Notes under the pieces: model-generated
What the model saw: only the letters and a program-made list of their open reading frames with translations
Databases searched by the model: none
What the model was told of the DNA's origin: nothing
Source of the DNA: Rhodospirillales bacterium
Lineage (GTDB): Bacteria; Pseudomonadota; Alphaproteobacteria; Acetobacterales; Acetobacteraceae
Direction: 5' to 3'
DNA: 52,162 nucleotides
Assembly: GCA_025351925.1 (NCBI GenBank)
Contig: JANXVC010000104.1
Span: forward strand, 1 to 52,162
Shown: in pieces, positions 1 to 12,150 of the stretch
Layout: every line of letters starts with the position of its first letter
Position numbering within the stretch: position 1 is the first letter of the stretch
Made by a program: the position numbers and the translations under genes

Positions 1-162
1 CGTCCGGCTCGAGCGCTCGAAAAGCGCCACGCCGAGCAGCGCCTCGAGCTTGCGGAGCTGCACGGAGAGGGTCGGCTGGCTGACGCCGCAGGCCTTGGCG
101 GCGCGTCCGAAATGCTCATGCTCGGCCATGGCGAGGAGATAGCGGAGATCACGCAGGTTCAT
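1..162 (-). CDS. oxyR: LysR-family regulator, OxyR-like, N-terminal part only
   Basis: Only the first 54 codons are inside the window; the gene runs off the left edge. The visible part reads [22 protein letters not shown] followed by [17 protein letters not shown], a typical LysR winged-helix DNA-binding domain, continuing into LGVALFERS. The DLRYL...HFGRAA..C.VSQPTLS pattern is that of OxyR. It is divergent from katG with about 218 bp between the start codons, the classic arrangement for peroxide-responsive control, in which oxidised OxyR activates katG. The sensing cysteines lie outside the window, so OxyR rather than another LysR protein is inferred from the N-terminal motif and the katG context. 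Confidence 0.85.
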
Positions 163-183
163 GGCGCGGGGCGCAATGCTGTC

Positions 184-220
184 ATAGGCTGCATCTATCA
201 CGTTGATTGACGCATGAGGG
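184..220. promoter_or_regulatory. Candidate OxyR operator between oxyR and katG
   Basis: The sequence is ATAG-N7-CTAT-N7-ATTG-N7-AGGG. The known OxyR site is four tetramers, ATAG-N7-CTAT-N7-ATAG-N7-CTAT. The first two tetramers match exactly, the third matches at 3 of 4 positions, the last is poor, and the 7-base spacing is exact throughout. It begins about 20 bp from the oxyR start and lies about 160 bp before katG. Its use for oxyR autorepression and katG activation is inferred. Confidence 0.65.
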
Positions 221-257
221 TTTCTTTTAACGTCGGTAAGACGCTAGACTGACTTAG

Positions 258-2657
<2,400 letters not shown>

Positions 2658-2909
2658 TCTCGGCGAATTGGCGTTCGGGCGCAGTTGGCGAGCCAGTTGC
2701 GCCCGGGTGCCGGGCCTGGGTCCGGTATCCGGTGCAACCAGTTCACTCCGTAACCTGCGGCCTCAACGGTGCACAGCGCGATCCATGCCCCTTGGGCGCC
2801 CGGCTGGTCTGCCATATATCTGGAGGTTCGGACCATGCTCAATTCTCTCCCGAAATCCATAGCAACGGTTTCGCTCACATTCGAGGCGACGATCAAAGGC
2901 TTCGTGTTG
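2658..2909. other. Intergenic region between katG and pcaB (convergent)
   Basis: About 250 bp with no convincing gene. A plus-strand ATG at 2835 opens a short reading frame beginning MLNSLPKSIATVSL. The words SIATVSL resemble the first residues of sugar-phosphate-isomerase-like 3-dehydroshikimate dehydratases (QuiC), which often neighbour pca genes, but the similarity stops within 10 residues. I therefore do not call a gene. No strong terminator hairpin was evident. Confidence 0.4.
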
Positions 2910-4280
2910 TCAGTCCTCGTTGGTGACGGTGGCCAGACGAGCCCGCACGCGGGCAGCGTCCTGCACGGCACGGTCCACCCACGGGCCGGCCGCCGCGACC
3001 GCGGGAGCAAGTTCGAAGGCCGGGGCAAGATCCACGCCCGCAGCCTCCGGATCTGCGGCAAGCACATCCTGGAGTAAAGTGCCTGTGCGGCGAACCTCGC
3101 CGGCAGCGCGTTCCACCAAGCCATGCGCGGCCTCGCGTCCCAGCTTCGCCCCAAGCCTTGCCGCAGCGGCATCAGCGAACAGCAAGCCCCGGGTCAGCGC
3201 CAGGTTGCCGCGCATTCGATCCGCATCGACCTCCAGCCCCTCGGCGAGCGTCCGCGCCTCGCGCAGCGCTCCGGAGAGCAGGCCGAACAGAGTTGGCAGC
3301 GCGTGCCACTCCGCGTGCCAAAGCCCGACGGGACGTTCGTGCTGCGCCGCCATCGCCGTGAACAGCGTCGCGACGTGTCCGGGCGCCGCGGATTGCGCGG
3401 CCAGGATCACAGTGCAGGAGACCGGGTTGCGCTTGTGCGGCATGGCCGATGAGCCGCCGCGGCCGGGAACGTAGGGCTCCGCAACCTCGCTGACCTCGGT
3501 CGAGCAAAGCTGCGCCACGTCGGTCGCCATCTTGCTCAGCGCGCCCACGACGCCTGCAATCCAGGCGCCCGCTTCGGCGACCCGGCCCCGCCGCGCATGC
3601 CACGCGAGTGGCGACGTCCCGAGGTCCAGCTCTCGCGCAAATGCGTCCAAGACCGCCGGCCCGTGCCCGCCTAGGCCCGCGAGCGTGCCGACCGGGCCGC
3701 CCAGCGAAGCCGTGAGCAGCCGTCGCCGGACTCCGGGCAGCCGGTCCGCGGCTTCGGCCACACCCGCCAGCCAGACGGCCGCTTTGAAGCCAAAGGTGAC
3801 CGGCGCCGCGTGCTGTCCGTAAGTACGGCCAACACAGGGCGTTGCACGGTATGACATGGCCAGCCTCGACAGCCCCGCCAGCACCGCATCCAGCTCGGCT
3901 GTGACAAGGCGGAGTGCGCAGCGCGACTGCAGGACGAGGGCGGTGTCTAGTATGTCCTGCGTCGTCGCTTCCTTGTGGAAGGCGCGCTCCAAATCCGGCG
4001 ATAAACGCTCTTGCACCGCCTTGACGAACGGTATGGTAGGCACGCCGGCCAACGCCGTCTGCCGGCCCAGCGCGGCCATGTCCAGGCTGCCGGGCGCCAC
4101 GTCCTCGACGGCAGCCGCCAAGCCCTCCGGCACAAGGCCGAGGCCGGCCTGAGTCCGCGCAAGCGCCGCTTCGGCTTCGAGCATCGCGGCAAGGCGAGCC
4201 TCGTCTGAAAAGCAAGCCTGCATCGCATCTGTCGCAAACAGCGGACCGAGCAGGGCAGAGTCGAGCGCAGAGAAGGTCAT
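2910..4280 (-). CDS. pcaB: 3-carboxy-cis,cis-muconate cycloisomerase
   Basis: Fumarase/aspartase-superfamily enzyme of the protocatechuate branch of the beta-ketoadipate pathway. It converts 3-carboxy-cis,cis-muconate to 4-carboxymuconolactone. The 456-residue product has the superfamily signature GGSSAMPHKRNPV near residue 285, preceded by VPGR, and an N-terminus (LLGPLFATDAM...F) typical of bacterial PcaB rather than of adenylosuccinate lyase. It lies 27 bp downstream of the BKACE gene on the same strand, and a pcaG tail lies upstream of that, so pathway context supports the name. The upstream sequence shows only a weak ribosome binding site, consistent with translation from a longer transcript. 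The gene itself looks intact. Confidence 0.88.
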   Translation of the reverse strand: MTFSALDSALLGPLFATDAMQACFSDEARLAAMLEAEAALARTQAGLGLVPEGLAAAVEDVAPGSLDMAALGRQTALAGVPTIPFVKAVQERLSPDLERAFHKEATTQDILDTALVLQSRCALRLVTAELDAVLAGLSRLAMSYRATPCVGRTYGQHAAPVTFGFKAAVWLAGVAEAADRLPGVRRRLLTASLGGPVGTLAGLGGHGPAVLDAFARELDLGTSPLAWHARRGRVAEAGAWIAGVVGALSKMATDVAQLCSTEVSEVAEPYVPGRGGSSAMPHKRNPVSCTVILAAQSAAPGHVATLFTAMAAQHERPVGLWHAEWHALPTLFGLLSGALREARTLAEGLEVDADRMRGNLALTRGLLFADAAAARLGAKLGREAAHGLVERAAGEVRRTGTLLQDVLAADPEAAGVDLAPAFELAPAVAAAGPWVDRAVQDAARVRARLATVTNED

Positions 4281-4307
4281 TGTGACCGGGTGAGTTAGGT
4301 GGGCGGC

Positions 4308-5141
4308 TTAGGTGACGGCGGGGAGGCCCAGCAGGGTGCGCGCCTCCATAGGCCTGGCCGCACGCCGGCCATGTCGCTCGATCGCCTGGACCGCAAGTCC
4401 AACCAGCTGCGCATTGCTGCCGGCGAGGCGGTCCCTTGAGAGGCGGATATTGTCCTCAAGCCCGGTCCGCACGCCGTCGCCGCCGCGCGCCAGCACCCAT
4501 TCCATGACCTCGGCCTGATACCGTCCGATCCCGGCCGCGGTCCATGTCGCCTTCGGCAGCTGGTGCCGCAACTCGCCCAGCATGAGATCCAGCAATCGCT
4601 CCTGCGCGGGCATGGCGTTCTGCACTCCCATGACGAGCTGCACATGCGGCCGTTCGTCCATCAGGCCCGCATCGACCAGGCGCCGCGCCCCGTGCAGGTG
4701 GCTCAGGTCGAACACTTCGATCTCCGGCCGCACCGCATTGTCGCGCATCCGCGTCGCGAGGTCAGTGACCAAGACTGCGGAGTTTTCATAGACGATGGTT
4801 GGGAAATTGACCGAACCCGTCGAAAGCGAGGCCATGTCCGGCCGCAGGTCGAGTGCATTACCGCGCAGCGAGGGGTCGCGTCCGCGCCCGCCGGTCGAGA
4901 ACTGCACGATCATGCCCGGGCAGTGCTTGCGGACGCCTTCCTGCACCTGGGCGAACAGCGCCGGGTCGCTGCTGGGGCTTTCGTCGGGGTTGCGGACGTG
5001 GATGTGCACCAGCGCGGCGCCGGCCTCATAGGCCGCCTGAGTGCTCTCGACCTGCTCCGCAGGCGTGGTCGGGACGGCCGGGTTGTCCTTCTTGCGCGGC
5101 ACAGAGCCGGTGATGGCAACGGCAACGACGACTGGGTTCAT
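4308..5141 (-). CDS. Beta-keto acid cleavage enzyme (BKACE, formerly DUF849)
   Basis: TIM-barrel, zinc-dependent family in which members condense a beta-keto acid with acetyl-CoA to give acetoacetate and a new acyl-CoA; the founding member is 3-keto-5-aminohexanoate cleavage enzyme. The 277-residue product is of normal length. The metal-binding His pair is seen in ALVHIHVRNPDE, followed by QFSTGGRGR, LSTGSVNFP and a C-terminal GGDGVRTGLEDNI motif that includes the conserved Glu. GGGAGGAA sits 6 bases before the ATG. It stands between a pcaG remnant and pcaB, so beta-ketoadipate is a reasonable substrate guess: cleavage would give succinyl-CoA plus acetoacetate and replace PcaIJ/PcaF. Family assignment is firm; the substrate is inference. 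Confidence 0.88.
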   Translation of the reverse strand: MNPVVVAVAITGSVPRKKDNPAVPTTPAEQVESTQAAYEAGAALVHIHVRNPDESPSSDPALFAQVQEGVRKHCPGMIVQFSTGGRGRDPSLRGNALDLRPDMASLSTGSVNFPTIVYENSAVLVTDLATRMRDNAVRPEIEVFDLSHLHGARRLVDAGLMDERPHVQLVMGVQNAMPAQERLLDLMLGELRHQLPKATWTAAGIGRYQAEVMEWVLARGGDGVRTGLEDNIRLSRDRLAGSNAQLVGLAVQAIERHGRRAARPMEARTLLGLPAVT

Positions 5142-5162
5142 GATGATTGTTCCTCCCTGGCT

Positions 5163-5231
5163 TCAGACGTCGAAGAACACCGTCTCACGCTCGCCCTGCG
5201 GATGGGTATCGAAATCATAGGTCGGCACGCC
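5163..5231 (-). pseudogene. pcaG: C-terminal remnant of protocatechuate 3,4-dioxygenase alpha subunit
   Basis: On the minus strand, 22 codons ending in a stop 21 bp before the BKACE start read GVPTYDFDTHPQGERETVFFDV. The PcaG C-terminus has the pattern Y-x-F-D-I-x-x-Q-G-E-x-E-T-V-F-F-D-[VIF]. Upstream in the same frame the sequence loses this character (PDVRSRTPSARTGE) and soon meets a stop. About 90% of the gene, and all of pcaH, is therefore missing. The match is short but its position directly upstream of BKACE and pcaB is what a pcaHG-BKACE-pcaB operon would predict. It marks a deletion or rearrangement breakpoint near 5232. Confidence 0.7.
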
Positions 5232-5529
5232 GGGTTCTCCCGTCCGTGCCGACGGCGTGCGCGATCGAACATCGGGAGCGTGTCAAGCTTGGGTATATTG
5301 GTCGATCAGGGTCCATCAGGCGAAAACCTTGGTCGTTGCCCTCCCGCTCGTAAAGGGGGGCGTGTGCGCTTCCTGAATGCCGCTGCCAATTCGCCCAAAA
5401 ATGCCGGAAATAAACGACAGCGTCGTCATTGAAGCCAACAGATCGGCAATCACGGGTACTCGGGCCCATAGGGATGCATATTCGCCATTTTGTCTCTGTT
5501 CCCTGTGCTCGCCGTTGCGGCGATGCCGT
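5232..5529. other. Non-coding junction sequence between two gene remnants
   Basis: About 300 bp between the pcaG tail (minus strand) and the aldehyde dehydrogenase fragment (plus strand). It is less GC-biased than its neighbours, and the reading frames crossing it resemble no family I recognise. It probably represents rearrangement debris. Whether it now supplies a promoter for BKACE-pcaB cannot be told by eye. Confidence 0.4.
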
Positions 5530-6331
5530 CGGCAGTGCCATGGTGAAATCGGCCTACTCCTCGGGCAAGCCGTCCTATGGCGTAGGCGCCCGCAACGTTC
5601 CCGTCGTGATCGACCGCGGCGTGGACCTGCAGGACGCCGCCGCGATGATTACCGCGGGCGCCGCCTTCGACAACGGCATCATCTGCTCGCACGAGCAGTT
5701 CGTGCTCACCCCGGAGAAGCACTACGAGGCGACGATCGAAGCCTTCCTCGCGACCGGCAAGGTGTTTTTCACCGCCGACGAGGCGTAAGTGGAGCGGGTG
5801 CGTCAGGTTGTTTTCCACAATGGCCACTTGAACAAGGACATGGTCGGCCAGTCCGCGCAGGAGATCGGCGCCAAGGCGGGCCTCGATGTCCCCGCCTCCG
5901 CCCGCATCATCCTGGTGCCAGCGGACGGCGCCGGCACCGCTGATGTGCTCGCCAAGGAGAAACTGTGCCCGGTAGTCGCCATCCGACCTTATACGACGTT
6001 CGACGACGCCGTCGCCAAGGCGAGGGCCAACCTGCTGGTCGAGGGCGCTGGGCACTCGGCGGCGCTGCATTCGCACACCCCCGAGCACATCCGCACCATG
6101 GGCCTGGCGCTGCCCATCAGCCGGCTCGTGGTCAACCAGGCCTCGTCGCTGACGACCGGCGGCTCGCTGACCAACGGGTTCGCGCCGACGACCACGCTCG
6201 GCTGCGGCTCGTGGGGCGGCAACTCGATCTCGGAGAACCTCGACTACAAGCACCTGATGAACGTGTCGCGCATCGGCGACGTCATAGCCCACCGCAAGGT
6301 GCCGACCGACGACGAGATCTGGGCGATATAA
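5530..6331 (+). pseudogene. Acylating (CoA-dependent) aldehyde dehydrogenase, N-terminally truncated with in-frame TAA
   Basis: Homology begins at AMVKSAYSSGKPSYGVGARNVPVVIDR and continues through FDNGIICSHEQ, which includes the catalytic Cys of acylating aldehyde dehydrogenases (the SauS, PduP and AdhE N-domain group). At 5786-5788 an in-frame TAA interrupts FFTADEA*VERVRQVVF. Reading continues in the same frame to a normal C-terminus (HSHTPEHIRTMG, NISENLDYKHLMN-type ending). Two ORF-track entries (5429-5788 and 5789-6331) are thus halves of one gene. GAA to TAA is a one-base change that would explain the stop. Roughly the first 200 residues, including most of the NAD-binding domain, are absent. 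The product would be an aldehyde-to-acyl-CoA enzyme, and it is not functional here. Exact aldehyde substrate unknown. Confidence 0.85.
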
Positions 6332-6435
6332 GATTTGGGCGGCGACGGACGGGGAAGCGCTTCGTGCAGCCGGCAGACTCGTCTAACCATACAGTCTAAT
6401 TATGCTAACTTGTGCTCAAAGAATGGAGACAGGGC

Positions 6436-7170
6436 ATGGGCATTGAGACGACGTCTGGGTAAGGCCGGCGCGGCAGGTTCGACAAGGAACGGACCCGGCA
6501 AGGCATCCTGGACGCTGCGCGCGAGGAATTTGCGGAACACGGGCTTTCCGGCGCGCGCGTGGAAGCGATTGCGGCGCGCACCAACACCGTCAAACGAATG
6601 ATCTACTACTATTTCGGCAGCAAGGAGGGGCTGTATCTTGCCGTGCTCGATCAGGCCTACGCGGCTATCCGTGAGGCCGAGAAGCAGCTGGGCCTGCTTG
6701 GCTTGCGGCCTGTCGAGGCCATCCATCGCCTGATTGGCTTCATGTTCGACTATCAGGAGGCAAACCCGGGCTTCATTCGCCTGGTAAGCATCGAAAACAT
6801 CCACAATGGCGCGCACATGGCGCGGTCCGAGACGATCCAGCGGCTCAACAGCGCGGTGGTAGAGACGCTGGCCACCATCCTGGAGCGAGGCCGGAAACAG
6901 GGTGTGTTTCGCGACGACGTGGACGCGGTGGACGTGTACATGCTGATCAGCGCGTTCTGCTTCTTCCGGGTTTCGAACCGCCATACCTTCAGGCTGTCGT
7001 TCGGACGTGACCTTTCGGACCCGGCGCTGCGGAGCCGGCACAAGCGGCTGATCGCGGACGCAGTTCTCCGCACCTTGGAATACCGCAAGGAAACGATGGG
7101 TAGAGACACCGAGGAGGATGAGAAAACCGTAGCCGAGAAGAAGGAAGGCCGTCGCCGCGCTGCGGCCTAA
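6436..7170 (+). pseudogene. TetR/AcrR-family regulator interrupted by in-frame TAA after codon 8
   Basis: ATG 6436, with GGAGACAGGGC upstream, starts MGIETTSG and then meets TAA at 6460-6462. The same frame continues GRRGRFDKERTRQGILDAAREEFAEHGLSGARVEAIAARTNTVKRMIYYYFGSKEGLYLAVL, a textbook TetR helix-turn-helix, followed by a ligand-binding domain and a charged tail (EEDEKTVAEKKEGRRRAAA). No ATG, GTG or TTG occurs in frame between the stop and GTG 6559, where the ORF track starts. That start would remove the first DNA-binding helix. So the regulator is most likely dead unless translation initiates at a rare codon. It lies 35 bp before the alcohol dehydrogenase and probably once controlled that operon. 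Confidence 0.82.
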
Positions 7171-7205
7171 CGACGGCCGTCAATATGGCTGAAGGAGGCA
7201 ACAAC

Positions 7206-8335
7206 ATGAAAATCAGAGCTGCGGTCCTGGACCGCATGGGCGCCGAGACCCCTTATGCCGTGAGCAAGCCGCTGCGCATCGCAACGGCCGAACTGGACGG
7301 GCCAGGCCGGGGCGAGATCCTGGTACGGATCGCGGCGGCCGGACTGTGCCATTCGGACCTGTCGGTCATCAACGGCGACCGCCCGCGGCCGATGCCGATG
7401 GCGCTCGGGCACGAGTCGGCGGGCGTCGTCGAGACGGTGGGCGAGGACGTGCCGGACCTCGTGCCGGGCGACCACGTCGTCATGGTGTTCATGCCGTCCT
7501 GCGGCCACTGCCTGCCCTGCGCCGAGGGCCGTCCGGCGCTGTGCGAGCCCGGCGCCGCCGCCAACGGGGCTGGCACGCTGCTGTCCGGCGCACGGCGGCT
7601 GCATTGCGACGGGGTGGAACTCAACCATCATCTCGGCGTCTCGGGTTTTGCCGAATACGCCGTGGTGTCCCGCCGCAGCATGGTGAAGATCGACCGTGAC
7701 CTGCCGCTCGAAGAGGCCGCGCTGTTCGGTTGCGCAGTGCTGACGGGCGTGGGCGCTGTGGTGAACACGGCTGGGCTGCGGCCGGGCCAGACGGCGGCGG
7801 TGATCGGGCTGGGCGGCGTCGGCCTCGCTTCCGTACTGGGCGCCCTCGCGTCCGGCGCGCGCCAGGTAGTGGCGATCGATCTGTCGGACGACAAGCTGGG
7901 CCTCGCCCGGCAGATCGGCGCGACCGACACGGTGAACGCCCGCGACCCGGACGCGGCTGAGCAGGTGCGCGGCCTCACAGGCGGAGGTGTTGACTTCGCC
8001 TTCGAGATGGCGGGGGCTTCCGGGCGATGGAGCTCGCCTACAAGATCACCCGGCGCGGCGGCACCACCGTGACCGCTGGGCTGCCACCGCCGGGCGCCAA
8101 CCTGCCGCTGCCGCTGGTGCAGCACGTGGCGGAGGAGCGCACGGTGAAAGGCAGCTACATCGGCACCTGCGTGCCGGTGCGCGACATGCCGCGCTATATC
8201 GCGCTGTATCGCGCCGGACGGCTGCCGGTGGACCGGCTGATGAGCGGCAAGCTGCAGCTGGAGGAGATCAACGAGGGCTTCGACCGCCTGCACGAGGGCC
8301 GGGCGGTGCGCCAGGTGATTGAGTTCGCGCAATGA
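7206..8335 (+). pseudogene. Zinc-dependent alcohol dehydrogenase, frameshifted near 8018
   Basis: MDR-family NAD(P)-dependent alcohol dehydrogenase, starting at ATG 7206 behind AAGGAGG. Visible features are the catalytic zinc region GLCHSDLSV and GHESAGVV, the structural zinc cysteines in CGHCLPCAEGRPALC, and the Rossmann motif GLGGVGLASVLGA. Frame 1 runs to FAFEMAGA and then turns to nonsense (SGRWSSPTRS). The correct continuation, RAMELAYKITRRGGTTVTAGL through HEGRAVRQVIEFAQ, is in another frame (ORF 8027-8335). Restoring one base within GGGGCTTCCGGG gives MAGAFRAMELAYKI, so a single-base deletion is the simplest cause. It is followed by the CoA-transferase gene with about 47 bp between, suggesting a former alcohol to acyl-CoA operon. 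A sequencing error is possible, but neighbouring genes are broken too. Confidence 0.85.
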
Positions 8336-8382
8336 ATCCATCCTGAAGAAGCACGACCGGGCGACGCCCTGAGGAGCGGACC

Positions 8383-9996
8383 ATGAAGAACAAGATCGTC
8401 TCGGCGGCCGAGGCTGCGGCCGTTATCCGGGCCGGCGATACGGTCTCGGTGTCGGGCTTCGTGGGCATCGGCACGCCGGACGAGCTGCTGCTGGCGATCG
8501 AACGGCGGTTCCTGGACACGTGCGGGCCCACCGGGCTGACCCTGGTATTCGCGGCGGCGCCGGGCGACAGCAGAGATCGCGGGCTCAACCGCCTGGCGCA
8601 TCCGGGCCTGGTGCGCCGTGCGATCGGAGGCCACTGGGCGCTGGTGCCGAAGCTCGCGCGCTTGGCGCTTGACGATGAGATCGAGGCGTACAACCTGCCG
8701 CTCGGCTGCATCGCCCAACTGTATCGCGACATCGCGGCGCGGCGGCCCGGGCTGCTGTCGCGGGTGGGCCTGAGAACCTTCGTTGACCCGCGGCTTGGGG
8801 GCGGCAAGATCAACGGGCGCACCACCGAAGACCTGGTGTCCGTGGTCGCGGTCGAGGGTGTCGATTATTTGCTATATAAGGCGTTCCCGATCCACGTGGC
8901 GCTGATCCGCGGCACCACGGCGGACACGGCCGGCAACATCACCATGGAGCGCGAGGCGCTGACTCTCGACGTACTGCCGGCGGCGATGGCGGCGAAGAAC
9001 TCCGGCGGCCTGGTCATTGCCCAGGTCGAGCGCATTGCGCAGGAGGGCTCGCTCGACGCACGCCGGGTGCAGGCGCCGGGGGTGATGGTGGACTGCGTGG
9101 TGCTGGCCGAACCGGAGAACCACCGGCAGACCTACGGGACTCAGCATAACGGGGCGCTTTCCGGCCAGATCCGCGTGCCCACGGACCGGATTGCGCCGTT
9201 GCCGCTCGATGAGCGGAAGGTGATCGCGCGCAGGGTCGCGCTGGAGCTGCCGCCGGGCGGGGTCGTGAACCTCGGCATCGGTATGCCCGAGGGCGTGGCG
9301 GCGGTGGCGGCGGAGGAGAAAATTTTGAAATACCTGACCCTCACCGCCGAACCCGGCGTGATCGGCGGCATGCCGCAGGCCGGCCTTGACTTCGGCGCGG
9401 CGCTAAACCCGGATGCGGTGATCCAGCAAAACCAGCAGTTCGATTTCTACGACGGCGGCGGGCTCGACATGGCGTGCCTGGGTATGGCGCAGGCGGATGC
9501 GGAGCGCAACGTCAACGTCAGCCGCTTCGGCGGCCGGCTCGCCGGCGCCGGAGGTTTCATCAACATCAGCCAGAACGCGCGCAAGGTCGTGTTCGCCGGC
9601 ACCTTCACCGCCGGCGGGCTCGAGATTGCCGTCGAGGACGGCCGCCTGCGTATCGTGCGCGAGGGCCGCGGCCGCAAGTTCATCGAGGCAGTCGAGCAGA
9701 TCACCTTCAGCGGCAGCTATGCAGCCGAGACCGGCCAGGCGGTGTTCTATGTCACCGAGCGCTGCGTATTGCGTCGCACGGCCAAAGGCATGGAGCTGAC
9801 CGAGGTCGCACCTGGCGTCGAGATCGACCGCGACATCCTGGCCCACATGGGCTTCCAACCCATCGTGCATGACCCGAAGCCGATGGACCCGCGCCTGTTC
9901 CGCCCGGAGCCAATGGGCCTGGAGCAGCAACTGCTTGGCCTGGGTGTGGCCGGCCGCGTCGGCTCCGATGCCGTGCGGAACGGCGTTGGTGCATAA
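8383..9996 (+). CDS. Acyl-CoA:acetate/3-ketoacid CoA-transferase (fused alpha-beta)
   Basis: Family I CoA-transferase, 537 residues, with alpha-like and beta-like halves in one chain as in YdiF and propionate CoA-transferases. The N-half has the G-rich VSVSGFVGIGTPDELL motif. The C-half has NLGIGMPEGVAAV and the catalytic glutamate in LTAEPGVIGGMP (about Glu323), which forms the glutamyl-CoA thioester. The start follows GAGGAGCGGACC. It transfers CoA between acetyl-CoA (or another donor) and a short-chain carboxylate. It sits directly behind the broken alcohol dehydrogenase and is the only clearly intact member of that cluster. Substrate unknown. Confidence 0.9.
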   Translation: MKNKIVSAAEAAAVIRAGDTVSVSGFVGIGTPDELLLAIERRFLDTCGPTGLTLVFAAAPGDSRDRGLNRLAHPGLVRRAIGGHWALVPKLARLALDDEIEAYNLPLGCIAQLYRDIAARRPGLLSRVGLRTFVDPRLGGGKINGRTTEDLVSVVAVEGVDYLLYKAFPIHVALIRGTTADTAGNITMEREALTLDVLPAAMAAKNSGGLVIAQVERIAQEGSLDARRVQAPGVMVDCVVLAEPENHRQTYGTQHNGALSGQIRVPTDRIAPLPLDERKVIARRVALELPPGGVVNLGIGMPEGVAAVAAEEKILKYLTLTAEPGVIGGMPQAGLDFGAALNPDAVIQQNQQFDFYDGGGLDMACLGMAQADAERNVNVSRFGGRLAGAGGFINISQNARKVVFAGTFTAGGLEIAVEDGRLRIVREGRGRKFIEAVEQITFSGSYAAETGQAVFYVTERCVLRRTAKGMELTEVAPGVEIDRDILAHMGFQPIVHDPKPMDPRLFRPEPMGLEQQLLGLGVAGRVGSDAVRNGVGA

Positions 9997-10105
9997 GTCG
10001 GCCTTTTGACAAAACCTCTGCTGAGCCGGCGTCCGGACCATTCCCATGCTTTACCGGCTTCTGAAGTTGGCTGAGGTTGTGCGTAAACCAGGAAGGGTTT
10101 GCTTG

Positions 10106-10762
10106 ATGGACGAAGCCACATTGATCATTAGCAGCAAAAATTACTCATCATGGTCGCTGCGTGGTTGGCTCATCACTCGCATGTCTGGACTGCCGTTCAA
10201 CGAAAAAAGCATTGCGCTCGATGATGCGTCAACGCGTGAGGAGTTGCTGCTGCGGTCATCCTCGATCCTGGTGCCGTGTCTCCTGCACAATGATGTTTCA
10301 ATTTGGGATACGATGGCCATCGCCGAATACCTCAACGAGCTTCGGCCAGAGGCGCAGATGCTCCCGAGCGAACGCCTGCCACGGGCGCGCTGCCGCTCCA
10401 TCTCCGGCGAAATGCACTCCGGCTTCTCGGCGCTGCGCTCGTCACTTCCGATGAACCTTCGCAGCCGTCGGCCTGACTTTAAGGTATGGTCGAGCGCACA
10501 GGCCGATATCGAGCGCATCGCTTCGATTTGGCGTGAATGCATCGGGATCTGGGGCGGCCCATTTCTCTTTGGCCGGCAGTACACGGTGGCCGACGCGATG
10601 TACGCGCCAGTCTGCACGCGTTTCACAACCTATGACGTAAGGCTCGACGAGACCTGCACCGGCTACAAAGACCATATCCTCGCTTTGCCCGAGATGATCG
10701 AATGGACGCGCGCTGCATTGGACGAGCAGGGTGAGGTTTCGGAGTTGGACGTAGAGTTTTAG
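10106..10762 (+). CDS. Glutathione S-transferase family protein
   Basis: 218-residue GST with an N-terminal thioredoxin-like domain beginning TLIISSKNYSSWSLRGWL, the motif that holds the catalytic Ser in this bacterial GST subgroup. It continues with VPCLLHNDVSIWDTMAIAEYLNE, the glutathione-binding cis-Pro and Ser/Asp region. The C-terminal helical domain contains PFLFGRQYTVADAMYAPV, the usual N-capping motif. ATG 10106 is preferred over the track start at 10046 because AGGAAGGG precedes it and homology starts there. It probably detoxifies electrophiles, substrate unknown. Single gene, convergent with the broken hydrolase downstream. Confidence 0.88.
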   Translation: MDEATLIISSKNYSSWSLRGWLITRMSGLPFNEKSIALDDASTREELLLRSSSILVPCLLHNDVSIWDTMAIAEYLNELRPEAQMLPSERLPRARCRSISGEMHSGFSALRSSLPMNLRSRRPDFKVWSSAQADIERIASIWRECIGIWGGPFLFGRQYTVADAMYAPVCTRFTTYDVRLDETCTGYKDHILALPEMIEWTRAALDEQGEVSELDVEF

Positions 10763-10833
10763 AGCATCGTCCGATCGATCTGCTCTTGCGAGCGGACAAA
10801 GATGCTTGTTAAGACAAAAGGCTAGAAATTTCT

Positions 10834-10853
10834 TCCGATCCACTTCGATCGGA
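10834..10853. repeat. Inverted-repeat hairpin in convergent intergenic region
   Basis: TCCGATC-CACTTC-GATCGGA forms a 7-bp stem with a 6-base loop. It is followed by CAAAGCTCTAG, and a related GAGCATCGTCCGATCGA lies about 70 bp upstream at 10763. The composition, with GAGCAT...TCCGATC...GATCGGA...GCTCTA, resembles short intergenic palindromic repeats common in alphaproteobacteria. It lies between two converging genes and could act as a bidirectional terminator, though no U-tract follows. Confidence 0.45.
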
Positions 10854-10900
10854 CAAAGCTCTAGCGCACCAGTGGCCGCTCGGCTGAGCTCATGCGCGGA

Positions 10901-11829
10901 TCAATTCTCCGGCAGCCCCGCCCGCGTCAGCCAATTCACTACCGTGCCAATCTGCCGATGATCCATCAATGCGGGGGCATGGCCGCAGTCAGGAAACTCG
11001 ACCAGCTTCGCGCGTGGGCCTTGTTGCGTCATCGACCGTGCGATATCGCGGGTCAGCAAATCCGAATGCTCGCCCCGCAGCACGAGAACGGGGCTGCGGA
11101 TCAACTCCCATTGCCGCCACATGCTGACATTGACGAAAAACGCTGACTGAAACGCGCGGCCGATGCCGGGGTCGATCAGCAGCCGAAAGCGCCCGTCCGG
11201 ATCGCGGGCGATGCTATGTTTCGTGAGGTGATACCACTCGGTGTCCCCAAGACGCCCAAATGGCGCAAGCACCTCGCGGAAATAGGCCTCCGCTGCGTAG
11301 AAGTTCGCGAACGACTTCGGCATCCTTTGCACGTAGGAACCGAGACGGCTCAGCGTGTGCCAGGGGAGGAACGGCCCGACGTCATTGATGACCATGCGCC
11401 GGATCGGTGCCTTCGCGAGCGCTGCCAGATGGATGCCGATCAGCCCACCAAGCGACGTGCCAATCCAGTCGATCTCTGCAGCACCGCTTCGCGCCAGCGC
11501 TACAATCATGTCACTGGCATATTGCGGGAGGCCATAGTCGATCGGATTGGCCAGCCACCCGCTGCGTCCACGTCCAGCCAGGTCGGGCAAATGACGCGGT
11601 AGCCGTATTGCGCGAGCGCTACCGCCAGTGCGTCAAAATCGCGCCCTTGCCGTGTTAAACCATGGACGCAAAGCGCAACACGGGGAGCATCGGGGTCACC
11701 CCATTCCGTGTAGGCCATATGATGAAAGCCGGAACTGGACTGGCACATCACCTGACCAAATCGAGGCTCGATCCCGTTGACAAGCTCTGGCTCGCTCAGC
11801 AATGGCAGCTTGGTCAAACCACTCGACAT
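10901..11829 (-). pseudogene. Alpha/beta hydrolase, frameshifted near 11587
   Basis: The N-terminal piece (ORF 11506-11829) reads HHMAYTEWGDPDAPRVALCVHGLTRQGRDFD through YGYRVICP, including the oxyanion HG motif. The true continuation, DLAGRGRSGWLANPIDYGLPQY, is in the frame of ORF 10901-11590. That frame then holds the nucleophile elbow GTSLGG, an acid region VLVLRGEHSDLLT and the catalytic His in PDCGHAPALMD. One missing base around TGCCCGACCTGG explains the break. Repaired, the protein would be about 308 residues, a normal length. It was probably a carboxylic ester or carbon-carbon hydrolase, substrate unknown. Confidence 0.85.
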
Positions 11830-11929
11830 GCTGCCATAGCCGGACTCCGTGAAAGCAAGAGCGTCAGCTTAGGCCAAGCTGTGGAGTGATGTATATTGTA
11901 GGTTCGGCGGCCTTCCGCAAATCGACTGT

Positions 11930-12150
11930 CGCGATGCCAGCTGGCGCCAGAGAGCCACCGCGTTAGACGTGAGCTCAGTGCCCGTGTCAGCTTCGCTGCC
12001 ATGCCTCCGGCGGATCGCTTCGCGCTTTCCGTTGGCTTGCCGTGCGCCAAGACGAAATGGGCGAGCCCACGCGCCACCCGCTTGCCCGAGATCGACGTGT
12101 CCACAACCCCCGCCAGGCACTCGCGCGTGACGCCATCCATGCCCACCGCT
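11930..12150 (-). mobile_element. Remnant of IS3-family transposase (OrfB integrase core)
   Basis: On the minus strand, MDGVTRECLAGVVDTSISGKRVARGLAHFVLAHGKP (about 12140-12033) matches the DDE-domain stretch of IS3-type OrfB. There the pattern is VDGFTREC...DTSISG.RV...L......GKP followed by SDNGTE. The next conserved block, DTGTELTSNAVALW, is found about 11988-11940 in another frame. Both ends of the transposase and the terminal repeats are missing, and one frameshift and a D-N to D-T change are visible. A dead insertion-sequence fragment, which may explain the disrupted surroundings. Confidence 0.75.

Follow-up and report, generated by a model that had tools for sequence, protein, structure and literature searches.

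Relics of pcaG and its neighbours beside intact BKACE and pcaB genes in an Acetobacteraceae genome

Described and related gene clusters

The closest described counterpart of the locus analysed here is the pcaH-pcaG-kce(BKACE)-pcaB-pcaL cluster of Methylobacterium (Mnod_2087-2083), which carries BKACE instead of PcaIJ/PcaF (PMC8963497; PMC12379598). The pcaG-BKACE-pcaB order in this genus has been published together with the proposal that BKACE replaces PcaIJ and perhaps PcaF (PMC8963497), the cleavage of 3-oxoadipate with acetyl-CoA has been proposed for BKACE of the 3-oxoadipate type (PMC8963497; PMC12379598), and the cloned cluster has been used for engineering protocatechuate use (PMC12379598). 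The window examined here, by which we mean the whole 52,162-nucleotide stretch of DNA that was analysed (contig JANXVC010000104.1 of the Rhodospirillales bacterium assembly GCA_025351925.1), shares the pcaG-BKACE-pcaB order and keeps it on a single strand, with pcaG present as a relic. It differs from the Methylobacterium cluster in that it lacks pcaH and almost the whole of pcaG, has no pcaL after pcaB, and is flanked by the relics of an SDH and an aldehyde dehydrogenase gene. SDH stands for what we take to be a shikimate/quinate dehydrogenase-type enzyme, a name based on operon context and on what is known of such enzymes; for the relatives' enzymes, too, this substrate is putative.

Related genomes contain several versions of the cluster. 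At locus L177 the order is pcaCD-pcaH-pcaG-BKACE-pcaB, and L178 and L049 share this order with an added transporter gene between pcaG and BKACE; the succession pcaH-pcaG-BKACE-pcaB, which an earlier note on this DNA had expected of related genomes, is therefore found there, with the intervening transporter gene in the latter two. In L184, from the same genus as the window, and in L166, the order is aroQ-DSD-pcaH-pcaG-BKACE (DSD, 3-dehydroshikimate dehydratase), with a spacing of ~10 bp between pcaG and BKACE. These two clusters resemble the window in having BKACE directly downstream of pcaG, and the pcaG tail of the window is 77% identical to L184 at the DNA level; they are intact, however, whereas the window has lost aroQ, the dehydratase gene and pcaH. 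Conversely, pcaB follows BKACE in the window, whereas none was found after BKACE in L166, and the L184 cluster is cut off within BKACE by the edge of its contig. Finally, L050, from an Acetobacteraceae MAG (G041), has an aldehyde dehydrogenase gene divergent to SDH-DSD-BKACE-pcaB, and for the window, too, the relics indicate a divergent aldehyde dehydrogenase gene and SDH next to BKACE-pcaB; in contrast to the window, its aldehyde dehydrogenase and SDH genes are intact, and no pcaHG lies between the dehydratase gene and BKACE. In G017, another genome of the same genus, aroQ-pcaH-pcaG, BKACE-pcaD and pcaB are located on three separate contigs (L196, L168 and L130), with pcaB at a contig end.

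We consider it likely (probability about 0.85) that the locus is what erosion has left of a plant-aromatic degradation cluster leading from shikimate/quinate via protocatechuate to 3-oxoadipate, in which deletions spared BKACE and pcaB, the substrates of which would now be supplied by unlinked genes. The process is ordinary operon erosion, unusually legible in this case: the remains of three neighbours (pcaG, SDH and aldehyde dehydrogenase) let the lost arrangement be reconstructed, and the operon appears to have been caught mid-erosion.

Relics around the spared genes

The minus strand of positions 5163-5231 reads GVPTYDFDTHPQGERETVFFDV followed by a stop codon, and the proposal of the earlier note that this 22-residue tail is the C-terminus of PcaG has held up. 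When the tail was used as a query against 18,950 models, its sole match was the end of TIGR02423 (PcaG; positions 175-193 of 193, E=0.0013), and a search against Pfam gave no match. At the DNA level, a pcaG profile of 24 relatives scored the tail at 49.3 bits (E=2.9e-15), with 40 dinucleotide-shuffled windows reaching at most 8.8 bits, and among individual pcaG genes that of L173 is 79% identical over 68 nt (E=1.6e-11) and that of L184 is 77% identical over 74 nt (E=2e-10). A pcaG protein profile (19.1 bits, where 100 shuffled windows gave no more than 9.7) extends the relic to ~5264, giving a feature at 5163..5264 on the minus strand of which the last 22 codons are certain and ~33 codons are covered by the protein profile. 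A DNA-profile alignment continuing beyond ~5264 toward 5351 was gapped, of low confidence and overlapped the SDH relic, and was discounted. The score of the tail against TIGR02423 (18.6 bits) is below the cut-off of 126.25 and ~22-33 of ~195 codons are left, so this is not an intact PcaG; its sequence marks 5163-5231 as a genuine remnant of the 3' end of the gene. A tblastn search of the window recovered neither pcaH nor the remainder of pcaG, in agreement with the earlier view that both had gone from the locus, and the operon in its defining form, with intact pcaH and pcaG, is not present in the window.

Just upstream of the pcaG relic and in the same orientation lies the 5' relic of an SDH gene (5300..5429, minus strand), comprising the start codon and the first ~43 codons and carrying a 1-nt and a 2-nt deletion. 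Its frame begins with the ATG at 5429 and reads MTTLSFISGIFGRIGSGIQEAHTP, the N-termini of the relatives being of the IGSGIQASLTPALHEREGAEQ type. An SDH DNA profile (nhmmer) aligned its positions 10-121 of 861 to 5300-5408 with 34.0 bits (E=7e-11), the best of 40 shuffled windows scoring 6.8 bits. A first SDH protein profile, the rows of which were clipped at the N-terminus, had missed the relic that the DNA profile recovered; in the whole-window protein-level scan the relic was not significant, as expected given the frameshifts, and its frame had no match in NCBIfam. Further upstream, a divergent pseudogene for an acylating aldehyde dehydrogenase (5531..6331, plus strand) lacks the first 248 residues and has an in-frame TAA at 5786-5788; it matches NF047625/NF010378 and is 74% identical to residues 249-514 of the L050 protein (266 aa). 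The sequence next to the pcaG tail, which had been described as an unrelated replacement of pcaHG, is thus made up of the SDH relic and this truncated gene.

The next gene (6436..7170, plus strand) encodes a TetR-family regulator and is interrupted in frame at codon 9 by a TAA (6460-6462). In 14 related loci, a homologue of this regulator is found no more than ~3 kb from SDH, which is independent evidence for an SDH gene at the window locus. After pcaB, the sequence MLNSLPKSIATVSL (2835..2897, plus strand) is suggestive of a relic of the start of a DSD gene: 10 of 10 residues agree with L050 and blastn gives 86% identity over 28 nt (E=0.005), while the DNA profile missed it and the whole-window protein scan scored it barely over the shuffles. 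The G+C content is ~0.60-0.61 across the relic zone and the TetR gene, compared with 0.65-0.74 over pcaB, BKACE and the nearby alcohol dehydrogenase gene.

The main caveat is that the genome is a draft of 547 contigs, and the contig could, through an assembly or binning artefact, fuse the end of an operon to unrelated DNA. Several stops and frameshifts nearby would fit such an error, and the single ones in the aldehyde dehydrogenase, TetR and alcohol dehydrogenase genes are explicable by sequencing error. We nevertheless regard an artefactual fusion as very unlikely: what adjoins the tail are relics of the same cluster type in the expected order and on the expected strand, the SDH relic carries indel mutations of its own, and the region 5142-5530 is single-copy in the genome, so there is no repeat there to mislead the assembler.

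The spared genes and the scattered pathway

BKACE (4308..5141, minus strand, 277 aa) and pcaB, predicted to encode 3-carboxy-cis,cis-muconate cycloisomerase (2910..4280, minus strand, 456 aa), are both complete open reading frames, and their apparent intactness, already remarked upon in the earlier note, is borne out at the level of conserved residues. BKACE is of the 3-oxoadipate:acetyl-CoA type (NF053568, 442.4 bits, cut-off 350) and retains all 121 residues that are invariant among 23 relatives; pcaB retains 141 of 144, and both values fall within the spread of the relatives themselves. Pairwise dN/dS values of ~0.11-0.23 for the two genes reflect long-term constraint, not selection after the deletions. 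Among the PcaB models, pcaB scores just under the cut-off of TIGR02426 (349.2 bits, cut-off 355.75) and 424 against the cut-off of 595 of NF006554, its assignment being helped by its position and by 73% identity to the gene that follows BKACE in intact pca operons. It is the only strong match in the genome (350 bits; runner-up 167 bits), and there is likewise one BKACE of the 3-oxoadipate type. Equal-scoring BKACE N-terminal fragments (profile positions 1-51) open both contigs C2 and C529 of G000 (4-153), as though a repeated gene had broken the assembly.

The stop codon of the pcaG relic and the start of BKACE are separated by 21 bp (5142..5162, minus strand) that contain a ribosome-binding site, AGGGAGGA. 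The tail might in theory have been retained because it is functional, namely as a short, translated leader to which BKACE is translationally coupled, as an in-frame GTG (5226-5228) is preceded by a purine-rich GGGAGAA and the stop is close to the BKACE start. This is extremely unlikely, given that BKACE possesses a good ribosome-binding site of its own and a stand-alone pcaG tail was found in no other genome.

Statements about the whole genome rest on searches of its contigs, according to which the protocatechuate branch is seemingly whole, its genes being spread across four contigs or more. Contig C374 carries an intact pcaHG pair (TIGR02423, 149.5 bits, cut-off 126.25; TIGR02422, 317.7, cut-off 296.4), C362 carries pcaD (276 bits, cut-off 255.85), and C408 has a pcaC-like gene (142 bits against a cut-off of 155.7). 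The earlier note had called the operon decapitated, with the survivors deprived of their ring-cleavage enzyme, and had advised a look for pcaHG elsewhere; the locus is indeed decapitated, but what replaced the missing part is not unrelated and ring cleavage has not been lost from the organism. The PcaG of C374 ends in SWRLDIRLQGVGETVFLDI and shares 78% identity with its L183 counterpart, and a search for the window tail on C374 gave no match; by these comparisons it belongs to another lineage than the tail. As a 4.4-kb contig, C374 could be a contaminant or stray, though in composition it resembles the window closely (G+C content 0.654 versus 0.665 for the window, tetranucleotide correlation 0.972). 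Contig searches found no dehydratase, and no SDH of the kind seen as a relic in the window, so the loss would be that of the shikimate/quinate entry, not of ring cleavage. The case is a caution against inferring the loss of a pathway from one locus.

Since a separate pcaHG pair, PcaC and PcaD are encoded elsewhere, the two surviving enzymes would still have substrates, and BKACE and pcaB are probably still serving the scattered pathway. They could instead be part of the dead remnant, transcription having ceased and the frames being open only through the recency of the loss. The decay does look recent, the aldehyde dehydrogenase relic being still so similar to its relative, and no sigma-70-like promoter was found in 2600-7300, although such a scan carries little weight in a GC-rich alphaproteobacterium. 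Yet both genes are fully open with nearly all invariant residues kept, and the genome, which retains the other genes of the pathway, has no second good copy of pcaB. We therefore judge it unlikely that the pair is dead, and favour continued function within an otherwise eroded locus.

Proposed course of the erosion

The ancestral locus most likely had the order SDH - (dehydratase/aroQ genes) - pcaH - pcaG - BKACE - pcaB on the minus strand; a divergently oriented aldehyde dehydrogenase gene would have stood next to SDH, and a gene for a TetR regulator would have been close by. The genes proposed between SDH and pcaH are drawn from relatives and the list is complete in no single genome; likewise, all the proposed ancestral genes were found in one operon in no relative. 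One deletion would have fused SDH, from within at codon ~43, with the last part of pcaG, eliminating all genes between, and another would have deprived the divergent aldehyde dehydrogenase gene of its 5' half, while BKACE and pcaB would have escaped both and stayed coding. At least two deletions would be needed, with putative end points deduced from other species, and their number and order are provisional. Ring cleavage would now most likely be carried out by the separate, other-lineage pcaHG pair on C374, while genes at other places in the genome supply PcaC and PcaD. The junctions showed no recognisable insertion element, and no Rfam families were found in 1-12000.

As to the promoter, which the earlier note thought perhaps lost, the start codon of the SDH relic and ~100 bp upstream of it are still present, with no match there to a sigma-70 consensus. 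It is conceivable, if doubtful, that the fused SDH-pcaG relic has newly become a leader, either untranslated or coding for a short peptide, that connects BKACE-pcaB to the former start region of SDH, with the other-lineage pcaHG taking over ring cleavage; if so, the pathway would have been rewired rather than be dying.

Further observations concern the flanks. A 22-nt direct repeat (91%) connects 2882-2903, after the possible DSD start, with 5725-5746, inside the aldehyde dehydrogenase relic. Beyond the TetR gene, a zinc alcohol dehydrogenase gene (7206-8335, plus strand) is split by a frameshift near 8020 beside short G-runs, which may be a sequencing error or mark a further pseudogene. In G086 (L234), an intact aldehyde dehydrogenase gene and the counterparts of the alcohol dehydrogenase (82%) and CoA-transferase (78%) genes of the window lie in that order on a single strand, and by comparison the region 5531-9996 of the window looks like a second cluster with the TetR gene interposed.
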